Assembly (NCBI GenBank): GCA_012837965.1
Contig: DUQF01000017.1
Location: 1 to 64,000, forward strand
Length of the DNA: 64,000 nucleotides
Direction: 5' to 3'
Origin: Clostridiales bacterium
GTDB lineage: Bacteria > Bacillota > Clostridia > Christensenellales > Aristaeellaceae
Positions 14,134-37,722 of this stretch are shown here, piece by piece; the stretch's first letter is position 1, and the number at the start of each line of letters is the position of its first letter. Below the pieces are notes generated by a model. That model saw only the letters and a list, made by a program, of their open reading frames with translations, was not told the DNA's origin and did no database searches. The translations under genes were made by a program, and so were the position numbers.

Positions 14134-15162
14134 TTACAAGCTGTCCGCCATATCCAGCACCAACCTTTCGCTCTTTTCCCAACCCAGGCAGGGGTCGGTA
14201 ATAGACTTGCCATAAATGCCTTCACCGATTTTTTGGGCGCCGTCTTCCAAATAGCTTTCCACCATGAAACCCTTGACCAGTTTCTTGATATTGGAATCCC
14301 AGGCCATGGATGCCATGACGTCACGGATAATACGTACCTGCTCAAAGGGGTTTTTGTTGGAATTGTCGTGGTTTGTATCGATTAAAACAGCCGGATTTTT
14401 CAAGCCCCACTCCTGATAAAGCTCATTTAATAACAAGAGGTCTTCATAGTGGTAGTTGGGCAAGGCATTTCCATGCTTGGAACGATAGCCCCTTAAAATG
14501 CAGTGGGTGTAGGGGTTGCCCTGGGAATGCGCTTCCCAGCCACGGTAAATAAAGGTGTGCTTTTGCTGGGCGGCAAAAACGGCATTGAGCATGACAGACA
14601 GGTCGCCGCCGGTCGGGTTTTTCATGCCCACCGCCGTTTCAAGGCCGCTGGCCGTCAGGCGGTGCTGCTGGTTTTCAACCGAGCGGGCGCCTACGGCGCT
14701 GTAGCACATGAGGTCGTCCAGATACTTGGCGTTTTCAGGGTAGAGCATTTCATCGGCGCAGGAAAAACCCGTTTCTTCCAAAGCGCGCATGTGCATTTTA
14801 CGAATGGCGACAATGCCTTTGAACATGTCCGGCTTATTGTTGGGGTCGGGTTGATGCAGCATGCCCTTATACCCTTCGCCCGTTGTACGGGGCTTGTTGG
14901 TATAGAGCCTTGGGACAATGTAAATTTTGTCTTTGACCTTTTCTTGCAGTTCCCGCAGGCGCTGAAGGTATTCCATGACGCTGTCTTCATTGTCGGCAGA
15001 GCAGGGACCGATGATAAGCAGCAGTTTGTCCGACCGGCCCGCAATAATGTCGCACACCTCTAACATGCGCTTTTGCACAATGTCAGACAGTTTCACCGAC
15101 AGCGGGTACATTTCCTTCACTTCCATGGGGATGGCGAGCTTGCGCTCAAAATACATATTCAT
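14134..15162 (-). CDS. aroF: 3-deoxy-D-arabino-heptulosonate 7-phosphate synthase (AroG/AroF-like)
   Basis: First step of the shikimate pathway: condenses phosphoenolpyruvate and erythrose 4-phosphate. The 342 residues and motifs LLIIGPCSADNEDSVMEYL, YTNKPRTTGEGYKG, GARSVENQQHR, GLETAVGMKNPTGGD, LIDTNHDNSNK and KGFMVESYLEDGAQ match the type I-alpha (E. coli AroF/G/H-like) class. Many Firmicutes instead use the I-beta form, often fused to chorismate mutase, so this class is worth noting. A gagagga site precedes the ATG. It is the last gene of the operon, 26 bp after tyrA. Allosteric specificity (Phe or Tyr) cannot be read by eye. Confidence 0.95.
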   Translation of the reverse strand: MNMYFERKLAIPMEVKEMYPLSVKLSDIVQKRMLEVCDIIAGRSDKLLLIIGPCSADNEDSVMEYLQRLRELQEKVKDKIYIVPRLYTNKPRTTGEGYKGMLHQPDPNNKPDMFKGIVAIRKMHMRALEETGFSCADEMLYPENAKYLDDLMCYSAVGARSVENQQHRLTASGLETAVGMKNPTGGDLSVMLNAVFAAQQKHTFIYRGWEAHSQGNPYTHCILRGYRSKHGNALPNYHYEDLLLLNELYQEWGLKNPAVLIDTNHDNSNKNPFEQVRIIRDVMASMAWDSNIKKLVKGFMVESYLEDGAQKIGEGIYGKSITDPCLGWEKSERLVLDMADSL

Positions 15163-15188
15163 ACAACTTTCCTCTCGATAGGTTGGTT

Positions 15189-16046
15189 TTACTTTTTATC
15201 AAACAGGGCACGGCGCTTGGTAGACAGGCGCATTTTTTCCCGCATACCTTCTACGTCACCAGAAGCAAGCAGGTTTCGAAAACAGGTAAATTCTTTTAGG
15301 AACTTGTCCATCTCATCAAGCAGGGCAGGCCTATTGAGCATAAACAGCTCGCTCCACATCTCATCGTTAATGCGGGCGATGCGGGTCAGGTCCCGGAAAG
15401 AATCGCCCGTATAGTCGACCAAATGGGTATTGTCACCGCAGGTCATCAGGCTAACGGCGATGCAGTGAGTCAGCTGGGACACAAAGCCTATCATCTTATC
15501 GTGGTCTTCGGGCGACAAGCGGGTAATGGTTTGAAAGCCTAAAATCCTGCCCAAGTCTTCGCACCAGCGGATGGCCCTTTGCGTGTTCTTTTCGGTGGGA
15601 ACCACAATGTAGTTGGCCTCCCTGAACATGGCGGGATCGGCGTTTTCAACACCATAGACTTCCTTGCCGGCCATGGGGTGGGCGGCGATAAACTCCACCG
15701 TATCAGGCAGCATGTCCTGAATGTCATAAACGACGGGCGCTTTAACGCCCGTGACATCGGTAAGCAGGGCGCCGGGCTTAAAGCAGTCTTTCCATTCTTT
15801 CATCCAATCCATCAGGATGGTCGGGTAGAGGCCAAAGACGACCGCATCGGCCCCTTTTAAAATGGAAGCCTCCGTATTGGTATGGCCCTTATCGATAATG
15901 CCGTTTTTGAGCGCATAGTCGATGGCTTCCTTGCGGGTGTCAATGGCCGATACATGATAGCCCAGACGCTTTAAGCCCATGGCATAGCTGCCGCCCATCA
16001 TGCCAAGGCCGACAATTAAAATTTGGCTTTGACTAATCCATTGCAT
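15189..16046 (-). CDS. tyrA: Prephenate dehydrogenase
   Basis: NAD(P)-dependent oxidative decarboxylation of prephenate to 4-hydroxyphenylpyruvate, the tyrosine branch. 285 residues. The Rossmann motif ILIVGLGMMGGSYAMGLKRLGY spans roughly residues 8-29 (GxGxxG as GLGMMG). HPMAGKEVYGVENAD and SPEDHDKMIGFVSQLTHCIA are typical TyrA active-site stretches. There is no C-terminal ACT domain, so Tyr feedback through ACT is unlikely. The start overlaps the aroA end by 14 bp, and a gagg site lies upstream of the ATG. Confidence 0.94.
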   Translation of the reverse strand: MQWISQSQILIVGLGMMGGSYAMGLKRLGYHVSAIDTRKEAIDYALKNGIIDKGHTNTEASILKGADAVVFGLYPTILMDWMKEWKDCFKPGALLTDVTGVKAPVVYDIQDMLPDTVEFIAAHPMAGKEVYGVENADPAMFREANYIVVPTEKNTQRAIRWCEDLGRILGFQTITRLSPEDHDKMIGFVSQLTHCIAVSLMTCGDNTHLVDYTGDSFRDLTRIARINDEMWSELFMLNRPALLDEMDKFLKEFTCFRNLLASGDVEGMREKMRLSTKRRALFDKK

Positions 16047-17250
16047 GAAGCTGAACCTCTACTTTCAGGGAGCGCAAAAGCTCCCAAAATTCCGGAAAAC
16101 TCTTGTTGACCGCCTCCGCCCCGTCGATTTCGGCTCCATACCTGGTGCCCAAAACCGCAAGGCTCATGGCAATTCGGTGGTCGTTGTGGCTGGACAGGCT
16201 TTCGCTTGGCGCATGCAGCTTGGCCGGATGAACGATGACCTCATTTTCTTCAATGGTGAGCTTTGCGCCAAATTTTTCAAGCTCCTCTTTCATGGCATTG
16301 GCGCGGTCGCTTTCCTTGATTTTCAGCCGCCTTGTACCAATAAAATGCGCCCCCTTTCCGTCCGCTGCCGCTATGGTAAACAGAATTGGCCCAAGATCGG
16401 GGCAGTCGGATAGGTCAATGGGCCACTCCCCCGCTTTGATTTTTCTAAAGTACTGGGGATACACGCTGTCGCCCTGCAAACTGTATTTCCAAAGCCCCTG
16501 CACATTGACCTTGCCGTCAAGCTCACCCAGCGCCGAGAGGAAGGCGGCGTTGGAATAGTCGCCCTCTACTCTTACACATTGCGGCTTGTAGCTTTGATTG
16601 CCGGGGATGCGGCAATCAAAGTGGCTCTCCCTCTTTATTTCAATACCGAATCGCTCCAGCGCTTGCACGGTTAAATCAAGGTAACTGGCGCTTTCAAAGG
16701 GCGGGAGAATTTTTAAGACGCTATCTTTTTCAAGCAAGGGAAGCGCAAACAGAAGCCCTGTCATAAATTGACTGGAAATATCGCCGGGCACAACAAATTT
16801 CCCTGCCTGTAAGGGGCCTTGCACCTGTAAGCCTTGCTTGTCCTTCATAAACAGAAGACCTTGCTTTTGGCAGATATCTTCATACACCGATAAGGGACGG
16901 GACAAAAGCTTTCCGGCGCCCGAAAGGCGCATCACTTCATTTGAAAGAAGACACAGGGGCACAAAAAACCTAAGGGTTGAGCCCGACTCATTGCAAAAAA
17001 GGCTGGCAGACCGGGCTTTTTTAACGTCCGCCCCCTCCACCAAAACGCCCTTTTGCGTTTTGGTAACCCGTGCGCCCAAAGCTTCTAAGCAACTAATGGT
17101 AGCCTTGATGTCCTCGGAAAAGCTGAGGTTATTAATACGGCTTTGTCCCTTAGATAGCCCTGCCGCAATCAGTAAGCGATGGGCAACCGACTTTGACGGC
17201 GGCGCAACAGCTATGCCCTCCGCCCTGCTTTTTTTAACAATGGCCCGCAT
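16033..17250 (-). CDS. aroA: 3-phosphoshikimate 1-carboxyvinyltransferase (EPSP synthase)
   Basis: Transfers enolpyruvyl from phosphoenolpyruvate to shikimate 3-phosphate. 405 residues from the ATG at 17250, which has a gcgaggaaaa site; a start 27 bp earlier has none. Motifs: PPSKSVAHRLLIAAGLSKG, NESGSTLRFFVPL, SSQFMTGLLFALPL, VEGDYSNAAFLSA, IKESDRANAMKEEL and SHNDHRIAMSLAVLG. The stretch after the first substrate loop (LSKGQSRINN) differs from plant-type enzymes, so class I or II glyphosate response is uncertain. It overlaps aroQ by 17 bp and tyrA by 14 bp. Confidence 0.95.
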   Translation of the reverse strand: MRAIVKKSRAEGIAVAPPSKSVAHRLLIAAGLSKGQSRINNLSFSEDIKATISCLEALGARVTKTQKGVLVEGADVKKARSASLFCNESGSTLRFFVPLCLLSNEVMRLSGAGKLLSRPLSVYEDICQKQGLLFMKDKQGLQVQGPLQAGKFVVPGDISSQFMTGLLFALPLLEKDSVLKILPPFESASYLDLTVQALERFGIEIKRESHFDCRIPGNQSYKPQCVRVEGDYSNAAFLSALGELDGKVNVQGLWKYSLQGDSVYPQYFRKIKAGEWPIDLSDCPDLGPILFTIAAADGKGAHFIGTRRLKIKESDRANAMKEELEKFGAKLTIEENEVIVHPAKLHAPSESLSSHNDHRIAMSLAVLGTRYGAEIDGAEAVNKSFPEFWELLRSLKVEVQLHAMD

Positions 17251-17680
17251 CTTTTCCTCGCTTGACAAATAAATCAATAGCCTCTAAATAGCCTTGCACA
17301 CCCTTACCGCTGATGGTCGCAAAAGAGGCTAAGCGAATGAAGCTGACTTGTCGAAAATCTTCCCGCTTTGTAACATCCGACAAATGTACCTCAACGCACG
17401 GGAGGTTTACGGCCTTTAAGGCGTCCAAAAGAGCGATGCTGGTGTGGGTATAGGCAGCAGGGTTAAAAACTATGCCGTCATAGCGCCCGTGCGCCTCTTG
17501 AATCCAGTCGACCAAAACGCCTTCGTGGTTGCTTTGACGAATGTCCACCAAAACGCCCGCATCTTGGGCATGACGCTCAATGCGCTCACACAAGCTTTGG
17601 TAGGTTTCCCGCCCGTAAATATCGGGTTCCCGAAGCCCCAAAAGATTTAGGTTAGGGCCGTTTAATACAAGTAATTTCAT
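17234..17680 (-). CDS. aroQ: Type II 3-dehydroquinate dehydratase
   Basis: Dehydrates 3-dehydroquinate to 3-dehydroshikimate. 148 residues with the type II marks LVLNGPNLNLLGLREPDIYG (the flexible lid with its catalytic Tyr and Arg), RQSNHEGVLVDWIQEA, FNPAAYTHTSIALLDAL and CVEVHLSDVTKREDFRQVS (the His of EVHLS). The start overlaps the aroE/K stop by 4 bp, and the end overlaps aroA. Clostridia often use type I (aroD), so the dodecameric type II enzyme here is a small point of interest. Confidence 0.96.
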   Translation of the reverse strand: MKLLVLNGPNLNLLGLREPDIYGRETYQSLCERIERHAQDAGVLVDIRQSNHEGVLVDWIQEAHGRYDGIVFNPAAYTHTSIALLDALKAVNLPCVEVHLSDVTKREDFRQVSFIRLASFATISGKGVQGYLEAIDLFVKRGKDAGHC

Positions 17681-18915
17681 GAGCTAATCCTATCTATAAT
17701 AGTTTGAGCCGCCGATTGAAAGCCATTTTGTTGATGGATGACCACATCGGCCGCTGCCCAGTAAACGGGAGCGCGTTGTTTGTAAAGGTTCATGATCTTT
17801 TCCTTGGTATCGGCAAGGGGCCGATCTCTTGTGGGCACAATGTTTTGCGGAGGGCGGTTAAGGAAGTATAGTCGCCCGCTTTGTTTCAGGCTCAAAACAT
17901 TTTCATCTCGCAACACAGTGCCGCCGCCCGTTGCGATAATGAGGCCTGAGCGCAAAGACAGCTCCTTGACAGCTTCAAACTCCAAGCGGCGGAAGCCTTC
18001 TTCGCCTTGAGTGCGAAAAATGTCGGAAATTTCCATTCCCGCCTTTTGCTTGATATAGCCGTCCACATCCACAAAGGGTCTGCCCATCGCATCCCTAATC
18101 ATCCTGCCGACGGTGGATTTGCCGCTGCCCGGCATACCAATCAAGACAATGTTTTCCTTTTGGTTTAAAAGCTCCTGATGGATGCGGGTTATCAGTTTTT
18201 CGTCCATAGGTTCGCCAAGGAACAATTCCGCCGCCTTAACGGCCTGGGCCACCAACATCAACAGCCCGCCTGAAGCCTTGGCATTCCTTTCCTGTGCGCT
18301 TAAAACAAGCGGCGTGCGCAAGGGGTTGTAAATAGCATCCACCACCCCTTCAAGCCAGTTAAAGGGCGCAAGGTCAATGGGGCTTTGACCAAGGTTTGGG
18401 AACATACCCATGGGCGTTGTGTTGATGATGATTTGGCTGCGCCGATAGTCGCTTGCAGCCTGTTCGTAAGTGATGGCGCCCGTTTTTACTGTGCGGCTGA
18501 CAATGGTCACGCTGTATGCGCCAAGGCTGTCCGCCACTGCCTTCGCGGTCTTGGCGGTGCCGCCCGAACCTAATATCAAAACGTCCTTGCCTCTTAAATC
18601 AAGCCCCACGCCATGAATGAGAGCCTTCATACCATCAAAATCGGTATTGTAGCCAAAAAGCTTGCCGTTTTGGTTGACCACTGTGTTGACAGCGCCAATA
18701 GCCTTTGCCTTGGGGCAGATTTCATCCAGCAAAGGCATGACCTGCTGCTTGTAGGGGATGGTAATGTTTAAGCCCCGAAAGTTTCTCCGAATAATAAAGC
18801 TGTCAAAATCTTCCCTTGCAACTTCAAACAACTGATAATCATAGCGCCCAAGGGCTTCATGAATGGTTTTGGAGTAGCTGTGCCCCAGCTTTTCTCCGAC
18901 TAAACCATAGCTCAT
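17677..18915 (-). CDS. aroE/aroK: Bifunctional shikimate dehydrogenase-shikimate kinase fusion
   Basis: 412 residues in two parts. Residues 1 to about 250 are AroE: GHSYS (11-15), IPYK with K56, AVNT (N77), YNTDFDG (D92), the NADPH loop LGSGGTAKT (115-123) and NTTPMGM. Residues 253 to 412 are AroK: Walker A GMPGSGKST (260-268), DVDGYI, the RTQGEEGFRRLE region, GGG (330-332) and the lid RDRPL (363-367). The fused enzyme reduces dehydroshikimate and phosphorylates shikimate, consecutive except that the intermediate must pass between the two sites. It overlaps aroB and aroQ by 4 bp each. The frame is continuous with no stop between the domains. Confidence 0.95.
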   Translation of the reverse strand: MSYGLVGEKLGHSYSKTIHEALGRYDYQLFEVAREDFDSFIIRRNFRGLNITIPYKQQVMPLLDEICPKAKAIGAVNTVVNQNGKLFGYNTDFDGMKALIHGVGLDLRGKDVLILGSGGTAKTAKAVADSLGAYSVTIVSRTVKTGAITYEQAASDYRRSQIIINTTPMGMFPNLGQSPIDLAPFNWLEGVVDAIYNPLRTPLVLSAQERNAKASGGLLMLVAQAVKAAELFLGEPMDEKLITRIHQELLNQKENIVLIGMPGSGKSTVGRMIRDAMGRPFVDVDGYIKQKAGMEISDIFRTQGEEGFRRLEFEAVKELSLRSGLIIATGGGTVLRDENVLSLKQSGRLYFLNRPPQNIVPTRDRPLADTKEKIMNLYKQRAPVYWAAADVVIHQQNGFQSAAQTIIDRISS

Positions 18916-19928
18916 GACCCCACCTCCAAAATATAGAGGGCATCCGTCAGCTGCTCCTCTGTTCGCTGTTCAAAGGAAAAGCGACCGACTTCCCCACAGT
19001 ACACCACCGTGATGGCGTCGCCCTCCCGCTTCTTGTCGTGCATGACCTTATCGATAACGGCTTGTTTATCCACCTTGATTTGGGTGGGCAGGCCGTATTT
19101 TTTGAGCGCCTTGTTTAGGCGTACCCGAACTTCCGGCGCACACATGGGCAGCATGCCAAGGGCGACGCACTCGCCGTGGTATAAGCCCTCTTGTCCCTGA
19201 ATGGCCTCAATGCCATGCCCCAAGGTATGGCCAAAGTTGAGAACCTTGCGCAGGCTCTCTTCCCTCTCGTCCCGTTCCACAACTTCCTGTTTTAGCAAAA
19301 CAGCCTGCCTGACAGCTTCCTCAATCCGTGCGAAAGGCGGTGAGTTTTCCAGCATTTCAAACAGACTTGCGTCCCGTGTTAAGGCGATTTTGATGATTTC
19401 AGCATAGCCGTTGTTCATCTGCCGTTTGGGTAAGGTTTGCAAAAGCTCGCTATCTATCAACACGCCTTTGGGTGGGTAAAAACAGCCTACAATGTTTTTG
19501 ACGCCTTGGAGATTGACAGCGGTTTTTCCGCCGATGGAAGAATCCACCTGGGATAGCACAGTGGTAGGCACGTTATAAAAGTCGATACCCCGCATATAGC
19601 AAGCAGCGGCAAAGCCGGCCGCATCGCCTACCACCCCGCCGCCCACAGCGACCACACAGTCCTTGCGGGTAAAGGAGCGATTTAACATAGCCAATTGCAG
19701 CTGTTCAAAATAGTGCAAACTCTTGGCTTCCTCCCCTTGAGGCAGGGTAAAAAGCGCCCCCTCCTTGCACATGGAAAGCAAGCTTTGTGCATAGCTTTCA
19801 GGAACGCCCGTGTCGGTTACCACCAGCGCCTTGCGGTTTAAGTTAAAGTATTCACTTGCCTTTCCAAGGCCGCCCTGTTCAAAAATGATGGGGTATGTAC
19901 CTGTGGATGTGCATACTTCAACCCTCAT
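18912..19928 (-). CDS. aroB: 3-dehydroquinate synthase
   Basis: NAD- and metal-dependent cyclisation of DAHP to 3-dehydroquinate. Motifs: LPQGEEAKSLHYFEQL, VAVGGGVVGDAAGFAAACYMRG, PTTVLSQVDSSIGGKTAVN, GCFYPPKGVLID, NNGYAEIIKIAL and the metal-binding LNFGHTLGHGIE. The start is uncertain. ATG at 19928 (MRVEVCTS) has agggctt upstream, while ATGs at 19949 and 19946 lie a little earlier. All overlap the end of pheA. The stop overlaps aroE/K by 4 bp. Confidence 0.95.
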   Translation of the reverse strand: MRVEVCTSTGTYPIIFEQGGLGKASEYFNLNRKALVVTDTGVPESYAQSLLSMCKEGALFTLPQGEEAKSLHYFEQLQLAMLNRSFTRKDCVVAVGGGVVGDAAGFAAACYMRGIDFYNVPTTVLSQVDSSIGGKTAVNLQGVKNIVGCFYPPKGVLIDSELLQTLPKRQMNNGYAEIIKIALTRDASLFEMLENSPPFARIEEAVRQAVLLKQEVVERDEREESLRKVLNFGHTLGHGIEAIQGQEGLYHGECVALGMLPMCAPEVRVRLNKALKKYGLPTQIKVDKQAVIDKVMHDKKREGDAITVVYCGEVGRFSFEQRTEEQLTDALYILEVGS

Positions 19929-21030
19929 AAGCCCTGTACCCTTCATCATCCCTGAGGTGAAAATGTCCCACCACCTTCACGGTGGAGCAGTGACGTCGCA
20001 AGTTTTGTAGCATCGCTTGCCCTTGTTCGCTTGTTTCATCGCCCTCGGCCTCCACGTAGAAATAATACTGCCAGGGCACGTTTTTCACAGGACGGGAGCG
20101 AAGCACCCGCATGTTAAACCCGTAGTCGGAAATAACTTGCACAGCCTTTGCCAGAGCGCCCGTTACGTTATTGACCATAAACAACAACAGGAAACCGCCG
20201 GGGTGTCCTGCCTTTAAGTTAAGCTCCCTTGCAGCAAACACCGCAAAACGGGTGGTGTTCAGGCTATTTTCCTGGATATTGTCTTTCAATACCTTGAGGC
20301 CGTACAGCTCGGCCGCCTCAAGGCTTGCGATAGCGGCAAGCTGTTTATCGCCCCTTTCTTTGACCATCTTGGCGGCAACAGCGGTGTTCACCGCCTCGGC
20401 CTGCTCATAGCCCCTATCTCTGATGAAAGCAGCGCACTGGGACAGCGCCTGCGGGTGGCTGATAACCCGCTTTACATCGTCCAAATTGCTTTCCTTCACG
20501 CCAAGCAAGTGCTGAGTAACCGGCAGGGAATACATGCCGTTAACGATTAAATCTCCTTTGAGCATTAAATCCATCACCTGACCCACTTCACCGGCAAAGC
20601 TGTTTTCAACCGGCAGGACGCAGCAGTCGCAGTCCCCTTTTTCCACCGCCTCGTAGGCAGCCTGAAAGTCGGGGTAAGAGGCGGCCGTACCGTCGGGAAA
20701 GACCCACCTGACCATGCGGTGAGCAAAGGCGCCCTCCACGCCTGAATAAGCGATGCGCATATTTTCAAGAAGCAGGCGCTGATATTTTCTTGATAACTTC
20801 ATCTCTTCTTGTAAAAAGCGAGCATAGTATTCTCTAAGCACGGGGTCGGAAATGTCAGCGGAGTTTTTCTCAATCACTTCTTTTTCCCGTGACGTGTCCA
20901 AAACAGGCAATCCCCGCTCCTTTTTATACTGCGCAACCCGCTTGACAGCCTCCATGCGCTCCAAAAATAACTGCGCCATTTCCTTGTCTACCCGGTTAAT
21001 CTGCGCACGTGCCTTTAATAATTCGTCCAT
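19918..21030 (-). CDS. pheA: Bifunctional chorismate mutase-prephenate dehydratase (P-protein)
   Basis: First gene of the aromatic operon. 370 residues from the ATG at 21030, chosen for its aaaggacgg site; an in-frame TTG lies 18 bp upstream. Residues 1 to about 85 form an AroQ-type chorismate mutase helix bundle (INRVDKEMAQLFLERM, LREYYARFLQEEMKLSR). The prephenate dehydratase follows (AYSGVEGAFAH, DCCVLPVENSFAGEVGQVMD, the TTRFAVF region). A C-terminal ACT domain (GALAKAVQVISDYGFNMRVLRSRPVKN) normally gives Phe feedback. It converts chorismate to phenylpyruvate. The Phe/Tyr-codon leader just upstream suggests control by attenuation. Confidence 0.95.
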   Translation of the reverse strand: MDELLKARAQINRVDKEMAQLFLERMEAVKRVAQYKKERGLPVLDTSREKEVIEKNSADISDPVLREYYARFLQEEMKLSRKYQRLLLENMRIAYSGVEGAFAHRMVRWVFPDGTAASYPDFQAAYEAVEKGDCDCCVLPVENSFAGEVGQVMDLMLKGDLIVNGMYSLPVTQHLLGVKESNLDDVKRVISHPQALSQCAAFIRDRGYEQAEAVNTAVAAKMVKERGDKQLAAIASLEAAELYGLKVLKDNIQENSLNTTRFAVFAARELNLKAGHPGGFLLLFMVNNVTGALAKAVQVISDYGFNMRVLRSRPVKNVPWQYYFYVEAEGDETSEQGQAMLQNLRRHCSTVKVVGHFHLRDDEGYRAYEG

Positions 21031-21049
21031 TTCGTCCGTCCTTTTCAAT

Positions 21050-35557: not shown

Positions 35558-36218
35558 CAATCATAACCTCAATCAATTTACGCCAGCCGGCTTCCTCCAA
35601 GGCGCCCTGCTGTACATGGAGGATTTGGCCTTGGCTGTTAACAAACCAGGTGGTAGGAAAGGCCCGCACCGCAAGGCCTGATTCCTGCGAAAACATGGCG
35701 GAAGCTAAGATTTTTTCGGGCACAATGGAGGCATAAGTGACTTTTAAATCGGCAACCACCTTTTTGGCGGCATCAATGATCTCTTCGTTGCGCACGATGT
35801 TGCCGTTTTCATCGCCCTTGATGCCTTCAAAGAGTACGCCAACCAGTAAAAGGTCGTCCGCAAATTCTTGTTGCAGCTTTTCAAAGGCGGGCATTTCCAT
35901 CCGGCAGGGACCGCACCAGTCCGCCCAGACATTGAGCATGAGCACCCTGTCGCCCTGATTCGAAAAATCAAAGGGCTGGTTATCAAGGTCGGTGGTTTTA
36001 ATCTGTTGGAAAAGGTTGGCTGTTCCATCAACCTCCGGGGTGTCGGTGGCTTCCTCCGCCTCCTCAGGCTGCGGAGTATCGGTCGGTTGAAGTGTTTCCG
36101 TTGCCTGCGGGACTTCGGTCGCTTGGGGTTTCTTGGAGTCGGTCAGTTTAGTTGCCAGAAAAATGAATAAAAGAGCCAGCAAAATGAGAGCGATGATTCC
36201 AATGGTGGATTTTTTCAT
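35526..36218 (-). CDS. Membrane-anchored TlpA-type thioredoxin
   Basis: 230 residues. An N-terminal membrane anchor (about 5-24) is followed by an acidic Thr/Pro/Glu-rich linker (28-66), then a thioredoxin fold (about 70-230). The linker contains repeated ATE, QPTDTPQPEE and ATDTPE units. LMLNVWADWCGPCRMEMPAF holds the redox CxxC (C102, C105). FPTTWFVNSQGQI is the usual cis-Pro loop region. It acts outside the membrane as a thiol-disulfide oxidoreductase. The ATG overlaps the nucleoside phosphorylase stop by 4 bp. The small CXXC peptide gene starts inside its 3' end. Confidence 0.93.
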   Translation of the reverse strand: MKKSTIGIIALILLALLFIFLATKLTDSKKPQATEVPQATETLQPTDTPQPEEAEEATDTPEVDGTANLFQQIKTTDLDNQPFDFSNQGDRVLMLNVWADWCGPCRMEMPAFEKLQQEFADDLLLVGVLFEGIKGDENGNIVRNEEIIDAAKKVVADLKVTYASIVPEKILASAMFSQESGLAVRAFPTTWFVNSQGQILHVQQGALEEAGWRKLIEVMIDANKNPEKYR

Positions 36219-37540
36219 GGGTATATCTCCGTATTGTTTTTGGTAATACGCCCATAAATCAGCTTGGCTTTTGGCGGCTGCTCCTTACCTATCTTGACCG
36301 CGTCAAGGAGGGAAGACTGCGCCGACGCCGCTTTTTGTTCATCGTTGTGGTAGATGGTGGCAAGGGGGTCGCCCTTTCGTACCCTATCACCAATGCGCCT
36401 GTGCATTACAAGGCCTACCGAAAGGTCGAGAATATCGTCCTTTCGCGTACGCCCCGCGCCAAGTTGTCTTGCGGCTTCGCCGATTGCTTGAGCGTCTACG
36501 CTAAGAATATACCCATCCACAGGACAGAGTACCTCTTTGGTGTATTTAGCCTGCGGCAGCAGGCTTATATTATCGCAGACAGCGGGGTTACCGCCCTGTG
36601 CGGCAATCATTTCTTTAAATTTTTTTAATCCCCTGCCCTCATTCAGGGCGCTCACCAATTGATGATGTGCGTCTTCCTCGTCTTTGGCAAGGCCTGAAAG
36701 AATGAGCATTTGTTCGCCCAGGCGAAGGCTTACTTCAAGCAGCGGGCCTTCGGTGCGCCCTGCCAAAACGTCGATGGCGTCCTTGACTTCAAGGGCATTG
36801 CCCACATGGCTGCCAAGAGGCTCTTCCATGCCGGTAATAAAGGCGACAACTTCCCGGCCGATACCGGCACCGATACCCACCATGGTTTGGGCAAGCTCCA
36901 CGCAGTCATCCAAAGTTTTCATCATGGCGCCGGCGCCAAGCTTTACGTCAAGCACAATAGCCTCGGCCCCGCCGGCAATTTTCTTGGACATAATGCTGGA
37001 CGCAATCAGCGGAATTGAATCCACGGTGCTTGTTACATCCCGCAGGGCATACAAGCGCTTATCGGCAGGCACCAAGTCGCCCGTTTGGCCAACAACGCAG
37101 CAGCCAATCCGGCGGACATTGTCCATCATCTCTTCTTCAGAAAGTTCCACCCGCATACCCGGGATGCTTTCCATTTTATCGATAGTACCGCCCGTGTGGC
37201 CAAGGCCGCGCCCGCTCATTTTTACTACCCTGCCGCCGCAAGCCGCGACCAAGGGAACCAAAATGAGGGTGGTCGTGTCGCCAACGCCGCCGGTTGAGTG
37301 CTTATCAACCGCGACGCCGTCCACATCGGGGGACAAAATATCGCCGGTCTTGGCCATAGCTATGGTAAGGGCGGTCGTTTCCTCGATACTCATGCCGTTT
37401 AGCCTGATGGCCATCAAAAGCGCCGCCAGCTGATAATCCAAAGATTTAGAAGAGGCGGCTTGATTGGCAAAAAAGGCAATCTGCTCGGGACTGAGCTGTT
37501 TGCCCAGCTTTTTGGTTTCGATAATATCGATCAAATTCAT
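36215..37540 (-). CDS. pdp: Pyrimidine-nucleoside phosphorylase
   Basis: Splits uridine, deoxyuridine or thymidine with phosphate. 441 residues. Phosphate and base sites: VDKHSTGGVGDTTTLILVPLVAACG, KMSGRGLGHTGGTIDKMESIPG, ALRDVTSTVDSIPLIASSIMSKK and LDVKLGAGAMMKT. The aggaggc site is clear. It leads a long same-strand run and sits just after the 19-bp inverted-repeat element. A plus-strand 5'-nucleotidase diverges from it, so nucleotide scavenging may link the pair. Deciding between a broad Pdp and a narrow thymidine phosphorylase (DeoA) by sequence alone is not safe. Confidence 0.92.
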   Translation of the reverse strand: MNLIDIIETKKLGKQLSPEQIAFFANQAASSKSLDYQLAALLMAIRLNGMSIEETTALTIAMAKTGDILSPDVDGVAVDKHSTGGVGDTTTLILVPLVAACGGRVVKMSGRGLGHTGGTIDKMESIPGMRVELSEEEMMDNVRRIGCCVVGQTGDLVPADKRLYALRDVTSTVDSIPLIASSIMSKKIAGGAEAIVLDVKLGAGAMMKTLDDCVELAQTMVGIGAGIGREVVAFITGMEEPLGSHVGNALEVKDAIDVLAGRTEGPLLEVSLRLGEQMLILSGLAKDEEDAHHQLVSALNEGRGLKKFKEMIAAQGGNPAVCDNISLLPQAKYTKEVLCPVDGYILSVDAQAIGEAARQLGAGRTRKDDILDLSVGLVMHRRIGDRVRKGDPLATIYHNDEQKAASAQSSLLDAVKIGKEQPPKAKLIYGRITKNNTEIYP

Positions 37541-37562
37541 CGCTTGCCTCCTATGCCGTTCT

Positions 37563-37722
37563 TAATATTACATTGCCTTTAGAACAGCGATTTTATCGCA
37601 GCGAATTTTTTGGTTTGGCAAAGCCTTGTGAAAGAAGCATAGCGGCTCCTATGCCGATCAAGACAAAGCCAAAGAGGAAAAGACGCACGAGGAAACGCTG
37701 GCTTAAAGGCAATGTAATATTA
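37563..37722. repeat. 160-bp element with perfect 19-bp terminal inverted repeats
   Basis: The 19 bp at 37563-37581 (taatattacattgccttta) recur exactly as the reverse complement at 37704-37722, 122 bp apart. No clear target-site duplication flanks it beyond a shared 'ct'-like context. The outermost 8 bases (taatatta) are themselves palindromic. It lies between the promoter of the nucleoside phosphorylase gene and its ribosome site. Transcription would begin at or next to the distal arm and the two arms could fold together in the mRNA. A miniature inverted-repeat element or a leader structure are both possible. Confidence 0.7.
37593..37712 (-). CDS. Possible 39-residue membrane peptide
   Basis: Opens with TTG at 37712, which lies inside the distal inverted repeat, with gggaag 10 nt upstream. 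It reads a basic start (PLSQRFLVR), a hydrophobic helix LFLFGFVLIGIGAAMLLSQ and a basic tail ending KNSLR. It lies directly downstream of a promoter and 53 bp before the nucleoside phosphorylase gene. The composition looks like a genuine membrane peptide, but the rare start and lack of a recognised family keep confidence low. Confidence 0.35.
   Translation of the reverse strand: MPLSQRFLVRLFLFGFVLIGIGAAMLLSQGFAKPKNSLR

Follow-up and report, generated by a model that had tools for sequence, protein, structure and literature searches.

The 160-bp unit at positions 37563–37722 of the window, that is, the whole 64,000-nucleotide stretch of Clostridiales bacterium contig DUQF01000017.1 analyzed here, has termini identical in reverse orientation and stands at the head of a long run of genes, raising the question of whether it is a miniature mobile element lodged in a leader, a regulatory RNA fold, or the frame of a small membrane peptide, all of which were proposed in the initial annotation. 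The inverted-repeat element as described there is confirmed. Perfect 19-bp repeats (37563–37581 and 37704–37722) were found by repeat search and by reading of the sequence, as the outer part of a longer pair (37563–37592 and 37693–37722; 30 nt, 87% complementary), and the extent of the whole unit was delimited by the same means together with BLAST and a family alignment. Judging from this alignment and the rule drawn from the site comparisons below, the two copies of a T-N-A target triplet make up the outer 3 bp of the arms (TAA at 37563–37565 and TTA at 37720–37722 on the plus strand, with unlike middle bases), leaving a perfect terminal inverted repeat of 16 bp (37566–37581 and 37704–37719). 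On the minus strand, the unit is placed, as had been stated, between a promoter-like site revealed by promoter scan (TTTACC and TATACT separated by 17 nt; 37758–37730) and the Shine-Dalgarno sequence AGGAGG (37547–37552), read from the sequence beyond the edge of the element, and ATG of the gene at 36215–37540, whose product we take to be pyrimidine-nucleoside phosphorylase-like (pdp). This first gene after the element is kept in relatives, according to the ORF map and comparison with them, and both promoter and ribosome site are intact on either side of the element. Because the −10 side of the promoter-like site stops about 8 nt short of the right arm, the transcript is expected to start at that arm, in agreement with the initial annotation. 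Every gene from pdp down to at least position 14134 is on the minus strand in the ORF map of the window, and the consecutive minus-strand genes downstream of the element thus span about 23 kb (14134–37540), including what is presumably a run of aro genes at 14134–21048.

The pdp leaders of congeners offer a direct view of the locus without the element. All five that were compared lack it and keep the promoter, with a −10 box of TATACT or TATAAT, and the distance from the −10 box to the ATG is 26–32 nt in these five versus 189 nt in the window; subtraction of 157 nt, corresponding to the element plus one triplet, brings the latter to 32 nt. For 15 further copies, the orthologous stretch of a sister genome was fetched, and 14 pairs were left after removal of one in which the sister also has the element sequence. 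By eye, nine of the 14 pairs have one T-N-A in the empty allele and a T-N-A on each side in the filled allele, the other five being ambiguous, and scoring of the joined flanks ranked the retention of one T-N-A first, by a small margin. Among 57 distant copies, 17 with other ends were set aside, and in 35 of the 40 scorable ones the middle base of the triplet is the same at both ends, versus 14.7 expected from base composition. On the strength of these site comparisons, the T-N-A pattern is a 3-bp target duplication; a single-strand, HUH-like insertion without duplication was also considered and set aside in view of the agreement of the middle base in the distant copies. In the window's genus (50 copies), the middle bases are the same in 22, complementary in 23, and otherwise in 5, with 17.2 and 21.4 expected for the first two classes, and the triplet pair of the window copy falls into the complementary class. 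Clean target duplication is confined to other subfamilies and genera. As a mere guess, the poorer triplet signal of the genus could come from a later change of the middle base, perhaps templated by the other arm.

The search of the own genome for other 19-mer pairs, suggested in the initial annotation, gave a divided answer. The exact 19-mer is confined to the present pair, matches elsewhere with up to three mismatches being only single, unpaired, or diverged, because the other family members have different arm sequences; related copies with such arms were indeed found. BLAST with the 160-bp unit detected three more full-length copies in the same genome (C44, C7, and C30; 74–77% identity), two degenerate copies, and two end fragments. 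With another copy as query, and with end-only and opposite-strand matches counted, two congeners had 37 and 38 matches, a third had 5, and the genome of the window itself had 8; two other genomes had none, and four of the six genomes of the genus were therefore positive. None of the 52 copies extracted for family analysis lies within an ORF of at least 80 codons in a crude ORF map. An exact arm pattern was met in 23 stretches of a public genome collection, all from two Christensenellaceae metagenome-assembled genomes (JAAYRU01 and DUQK01). A covariance model built from 30 copies of the genus (R1; E ≤ 0.01) found matches, mostly over the full model length, in 55 of the 150 genomes examined from the family, belonging to 24 of 50 genera. 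For a second model made from 23 copies, one per genome (R2; E ≤ 0.001), the genomes with matches numbered 40 out of 396 at the level of the order and 14 out of 391 at that of the class, these samples being overlapping and inclusive of the window's genome and genus, with rough E-values and a limited number of candidates scored per genome. Far from being a single copy without conservation, an outcome for which the initial annotation had allowed, the element belongs to a dispersed family with relatives in many genomes.

The dispersed copies, the T-N-A duplication, and the empty congeneric pdp leaders with their promoter lead us to conclude that the window feature is very probably a non-autonomous, MITE-like mobile element of about 154 bp, flanked by a 3-bp T-N-A duplication and inserted into the 5′ leader of pdp. 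Several properties by which a MITE is recognized are present: the element is short and non-coding, with terminal inverted repeats, dispersed copies, empty orthologous sites, and a target-site duplication. Of the ideas put forward in the initial annotation, that of a miniature mobile element in a leader is accordingly the one that has held, and its interpretation as a whole is partly supported.

The second feature of the family is its fold. In the window, the minus-strand RNA of the 160-bp unit is predicted to fold at −64.1 kcal/mol versus a shuffle mean of −32.1 (z = −9.85, equaled by none of 200 shuffles), and the plus strand at −62.8 kcal/mol (z = −8.21); with the recurrence of the unit elsewhere in the genome, the minus-strand value sets the repeat well apart from chance. 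Across the genus, the strand bearing AAGGAGG at its tip is the better-folding one in 49 of 50 copies (mean, −66.3 versus −49.2 kcal/mol), the exception being the window copy itself, which is without strand preference (−63.5 versus −64.9 kcal/mol); the same strand folds better in 22 of the 23 copies of a one-per-genome sample. To keep folding bias out of the mismatch counts, the left half of each element was aligned under strand-neutral scoring with the reverse complement of its right half, and the numbers of G.A, C.T, G.U, and A.C were 248, 12, 110, and 36 in the 23 one-per-genome elements; 362, 38, 317, and 86 in 50 copies found by BLAST; 159, 13, 65, and 44 in 18 copies that belong to the order but to other families; and 37, 3, 26, and 10 in 5 copies from other orders. 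G.A outnumbers C.T in all 96 entries of the four sets, with two own-genome copies counted in two sets, with the closely related genus copies not being independent, and with the orientation of distant copies set by the covariance model. Tandem G.A steps at fixed places amount to 79 in the 23 elements. An assessment of the outer pairs alone, according to which stem mismatches have no strand bias, was overturned by the whole-element counts. The arms of a copy pair with each other at −39.5 kcal/mol versus −16.5 kcal/mol for arms swapped between copies, and RNAalifold, given a structure-free alignment, predicted 49 consensus pairs, 36 of them with double compensatory changes. The compensatory changes and strand-specific non-canonical pairs are those of a structured RNA, and RNA and single-stranded DNA alike would fit them. 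Complementary ends are to be expected of any terminal inverted repeat, but a conserved tip, tandem G.A steps, and an excess of G.U are not. Since the G.A and G.U mismatches are those of one strand, often as tandem G.A, and the arms vary yet remain complementary, we infer from these sequence patterns that master elements have been selected as a folded single strand, either RNA or single-stranded DNA, and that the copies decay afterwards. A stretch of the form GAAGGAGGC..tip..GCYGACYG is conserved in the family, and its counterpart in the window copy is the apical domain at 37630–37664 (plus strand). There, the family alignment and the count of tandem steps show that 4 nt are deleted and that few of the tandem G.A steps are left.

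The fold invites the explanation that the unit is a cis-regulatory leader RNA, such as an attenuator, a riboswitch, or another ligand-binding fold, controlling the pdp operon. Its position in the 5′ leader, the very stable fold of the window unit, and the strong covariation of the family with conserved non-canonical pairs would all suit such a role, which is nevertheless very improbable, in that the element is absent from all five congeneric pdp leaders, most of the conserved apical traits of the family are lost in the window copy, and the better-folding strand of the family is antisense to pdp here. Moreover, the copies adjoin unrelated genes in either orientation: among those of the 50 genus copies (some of them orthologous) that lie within 100 nt of a gene, 21 in leaders and 20 in trailers are antisense to the better-folding strand, and 11 and 12, respectively, are sense. 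The antisense lean is weak, and the counts show no fixed role, nothing more. Because copies of both orientations occur upstream and downstream of genes and orthologous pdp leaders are empty, the element is not a dedicated pdp leader RNA; the regulatory fold of the initial annotation is borne out in part, by the strong strand-specific folding of the family. It is also conceivable, although very improbable, that the unit is a DNA palindrome in decay, the complementarity of its arms being upheld solely by template-switch (quasipalindrome) correction, with no selection on a folded strand. That process would account for the orthologous copy found inverted in place (locus L091 versus L114), for the short palindromes made of ends only, and for the arms of the window copy, which match perfectly even though both partners of three base pairs depart from the family consensus. 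Being blind to strand, however, it cannot yield 248 G.A against 12 C.T mismatches with an excess of G.A in each of the 23 elements, nor tandem G.A steps at fixed places, and the purine content of the G.A-rich strand (0.587) would explain a ratio of only about 2:1. Quasipalindrome correction may still shape the arms, with the core under selection at the same time.

Two further explanations have next to no probability. The small membrane-peptide gene or toxin supposed to lie within the repeats corresponds to a 39-codon TTG frame (37712–37593, minus strand), which does exist, starts in the distal repeat as had been noticed, and encodes a hydrophobic stretch. The hydrophobic reading in the window copy is, however, a product of its 4-nt deletion, and the same frame in 49 other copies gives products of 4 to 52 residues with differing sequences; TTG itself is found in 35 of 50 aligned copies, no ribosome site was seen for the frame, and its start is inside the repeat. 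We therefore judge the frame incidental. An assembly artefact at the repeat might be suspected in a draft genome of 44 contigs, but the element is internal to a contig of 71.8 kb with unique genes on both flanks, and copies of the same kind occur in independent genomes.

Returning to the MITE-like insertion, we assume that a DDE transposase would move the element in trans via its ends. Elements of the IS1031 group (IS5 family) insert at 5′-TNA-3′ with a 3-bp direct repeat, according to PMC12016507, a likeness in target and duplication that makes a transposase of that kind the obvious suspect. Of the two traits expected of an IS1031-group derivative, the 3-bp T-N-A duplication is present, and shared ends were seen neither with the DDE_Tnp_1 insertion sequences of the genus nor with the one published inverted repeat: the termini given for ISLrh are GAACCTGTCTAGTATCT (PMC12016507), as opposed to TACTA..TAGTA in the present family. 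At the DDE_Tnp_1 (PF01609) loci of six genomes, the insertion sequences of the genus have other ends, none of them matching. A larger unit with matching ends was found neither in 1.1 Mb made up of loci and the window nor in the first 20 kb of 40 contigs of genome G001; four spans exceeding 200 bp in the 1.1-Mb scan were read as neighboring copies. Lone ends were inspected as possible ends of a partner element and turned out to be truncated copies, mini-palindromes, or chance matches.

In this proposed mechanism, the master copies would need the folded strand, as RNA or single-stranded DNA, at some step, and individual copies would then decay. A hairpin some 160 nt long (modeled at −64 kcal/mol) would now form the start of the pdp mRNA, with the ribosome site left free. 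Since the predicted hairpin spares that site, an effect on mRNA processing or stability, such as cleavage of the RNase III type, would be likelier than a switch; by analogy with Correia and ERIC elements (PMC10969869, PMC2229807), a side effect of the element on pdp expression is possible, and RNase cleavage or altered mRNA stability would be its likeliest route. As to the family at large, we tentatively entertain the idea, which falls somewhat short of being probable, of a structure-dependent mobile element with a folded strand conserved across the class, in which an apical domain of tandem G.A is carried on a rod of exchangeable, matching arms. The folded strand acting as RNA or single-stranded DNA, either in mobility or in the cell, is part of this idea and is offered with the same reserve. 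If true, it would reverse the usual logic of MITEs, where conservation resides in the ends and the interior serves as filler. Integron attC sites and REP/RAYT units are single-stranded DNA hairpin substrates with a strand-specific fold, whose structure is conserved while the sequence diverges. The present family resembles them in its strand-specific folded hairpin and in its conserved structure with diverging sequence, but its target duplication with an agreeing middle base would not be expected of attC or of HUH insertion.

The Tourist/PIF-Harbinger MITEs of eukaryotes are likewise small, non-autonomous palindromes. The likeness consists in this form and in the 3-bp duplication; a duplication of 3 bp is given for canonical Harbinger elements (PMC12730594). 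Comparison is also afforded by the Correia/NEMIS, ERIC, and RUP repeats, which are described as small bacterial mobile repeats of less than 200 bp, non-coding and intergenic, with terminal inverted repeats and target duplication, whose transcripts are predicted to form long stems; some of them undergo RNase III cleavage or change the stability of mRNA (PMC10969869, PMC2229807). The present family is like them in size, lack of coding, inverted repeats, target duplication, intergenic location, and predicted long stem. It differs in having a T-N-A triplet where those termini are tabulated with TA (PMC2229807), and this type of target sets it apart from ERIC/IRU, defined by a TA target and a 127-bp enterobacterial consensus. 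It differs also in that the apical inside is conserved across genera and the arms diverge and co-vary, and in that the mismatches are G.A and G.U of one strand. No Rfam match reached the gathering score in six loci, and a second scan of six loci gave two matches, both below it; a literature search, covering mostly the openings of abstracts and few subscription journals or preprints, returned no description of this hairpin family. Apparently, then, it is a widespread hairpin family of Clostridia undescribed so far, and what was a curious repeat before one gene cluster now appears as one copy of a Clostridia-wide mobile hairpin family bearing the marks of structured RNA. Should the folded strand be needed for movement, or be a functional RNA, it would represent a mobile-element mechanism without description in that literature search. 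Direct tests are feasible, given a large set of copies in which the tip is fixed and the arms vary, and the copies also offer natural experiments on the changes in expression caused by a long hairpin in a leader or beside a stop codon.

The unity of the family becomes less certain with distance. In other families of the order, members often retain the tip CGTAGCAGCGCTACG, with T-Y-G-A after it in several, and beneath the tip a U run that pairs with A, but have different arms; in other orders, some copies share the TACTA ends and differ in the tip. The TACT-end rule is failed by 10 of the 19 copies that belong to the order but to other families, so that more than one mobile lineage may be present among the distant matches of the model, and by 4 of 14 from other orders; the assignment of the matches across order and class to one superfamily weakens correspondingly. 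At L237 and L248, a copy belonging to a different family of the order is bounded by a direct repeat longer than T-N-A, namely ACTTAGGT. Pattern searches of viral contigs (four patterns) and of plasmids gave no match, and the one match among phage records (L331, MT838918.1, named Bacteriophage sp., from human faeces, with one element copy) looks like a bacterial fragment, given the ABC-transporter-like genes aboard.

Several minor observations concern individual copies. Subfamilies with the same core and different arms were seen, the arms being of the type TACTWATCTCAGCC.. in genomes G001 and G005 and TACTAATCCAAATCG.. in G003 (at L118, L119, L122, and L104 as second copies, and at L065, L071, L074, and L077). 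Two congeners carry the element at an orthologous site (L091:2449–2617 and L114:5939–6107) in opposite orientations between the same flanks, an in-place inversion, and mini-palindromes of the two element ends only, perhaps products of hairpin deletion, occur at L142, L150, and L151; both observations suggest hairpin-mediated rearrangement. Finally, several copies adjoin a stop codon supplied by the element's own T-A-A or T-G-A end, and in the ORF map an element end seems to give the stop codon of the neighboring gene at L092, L097, L099, L102, L109, L110, L111, and L113.
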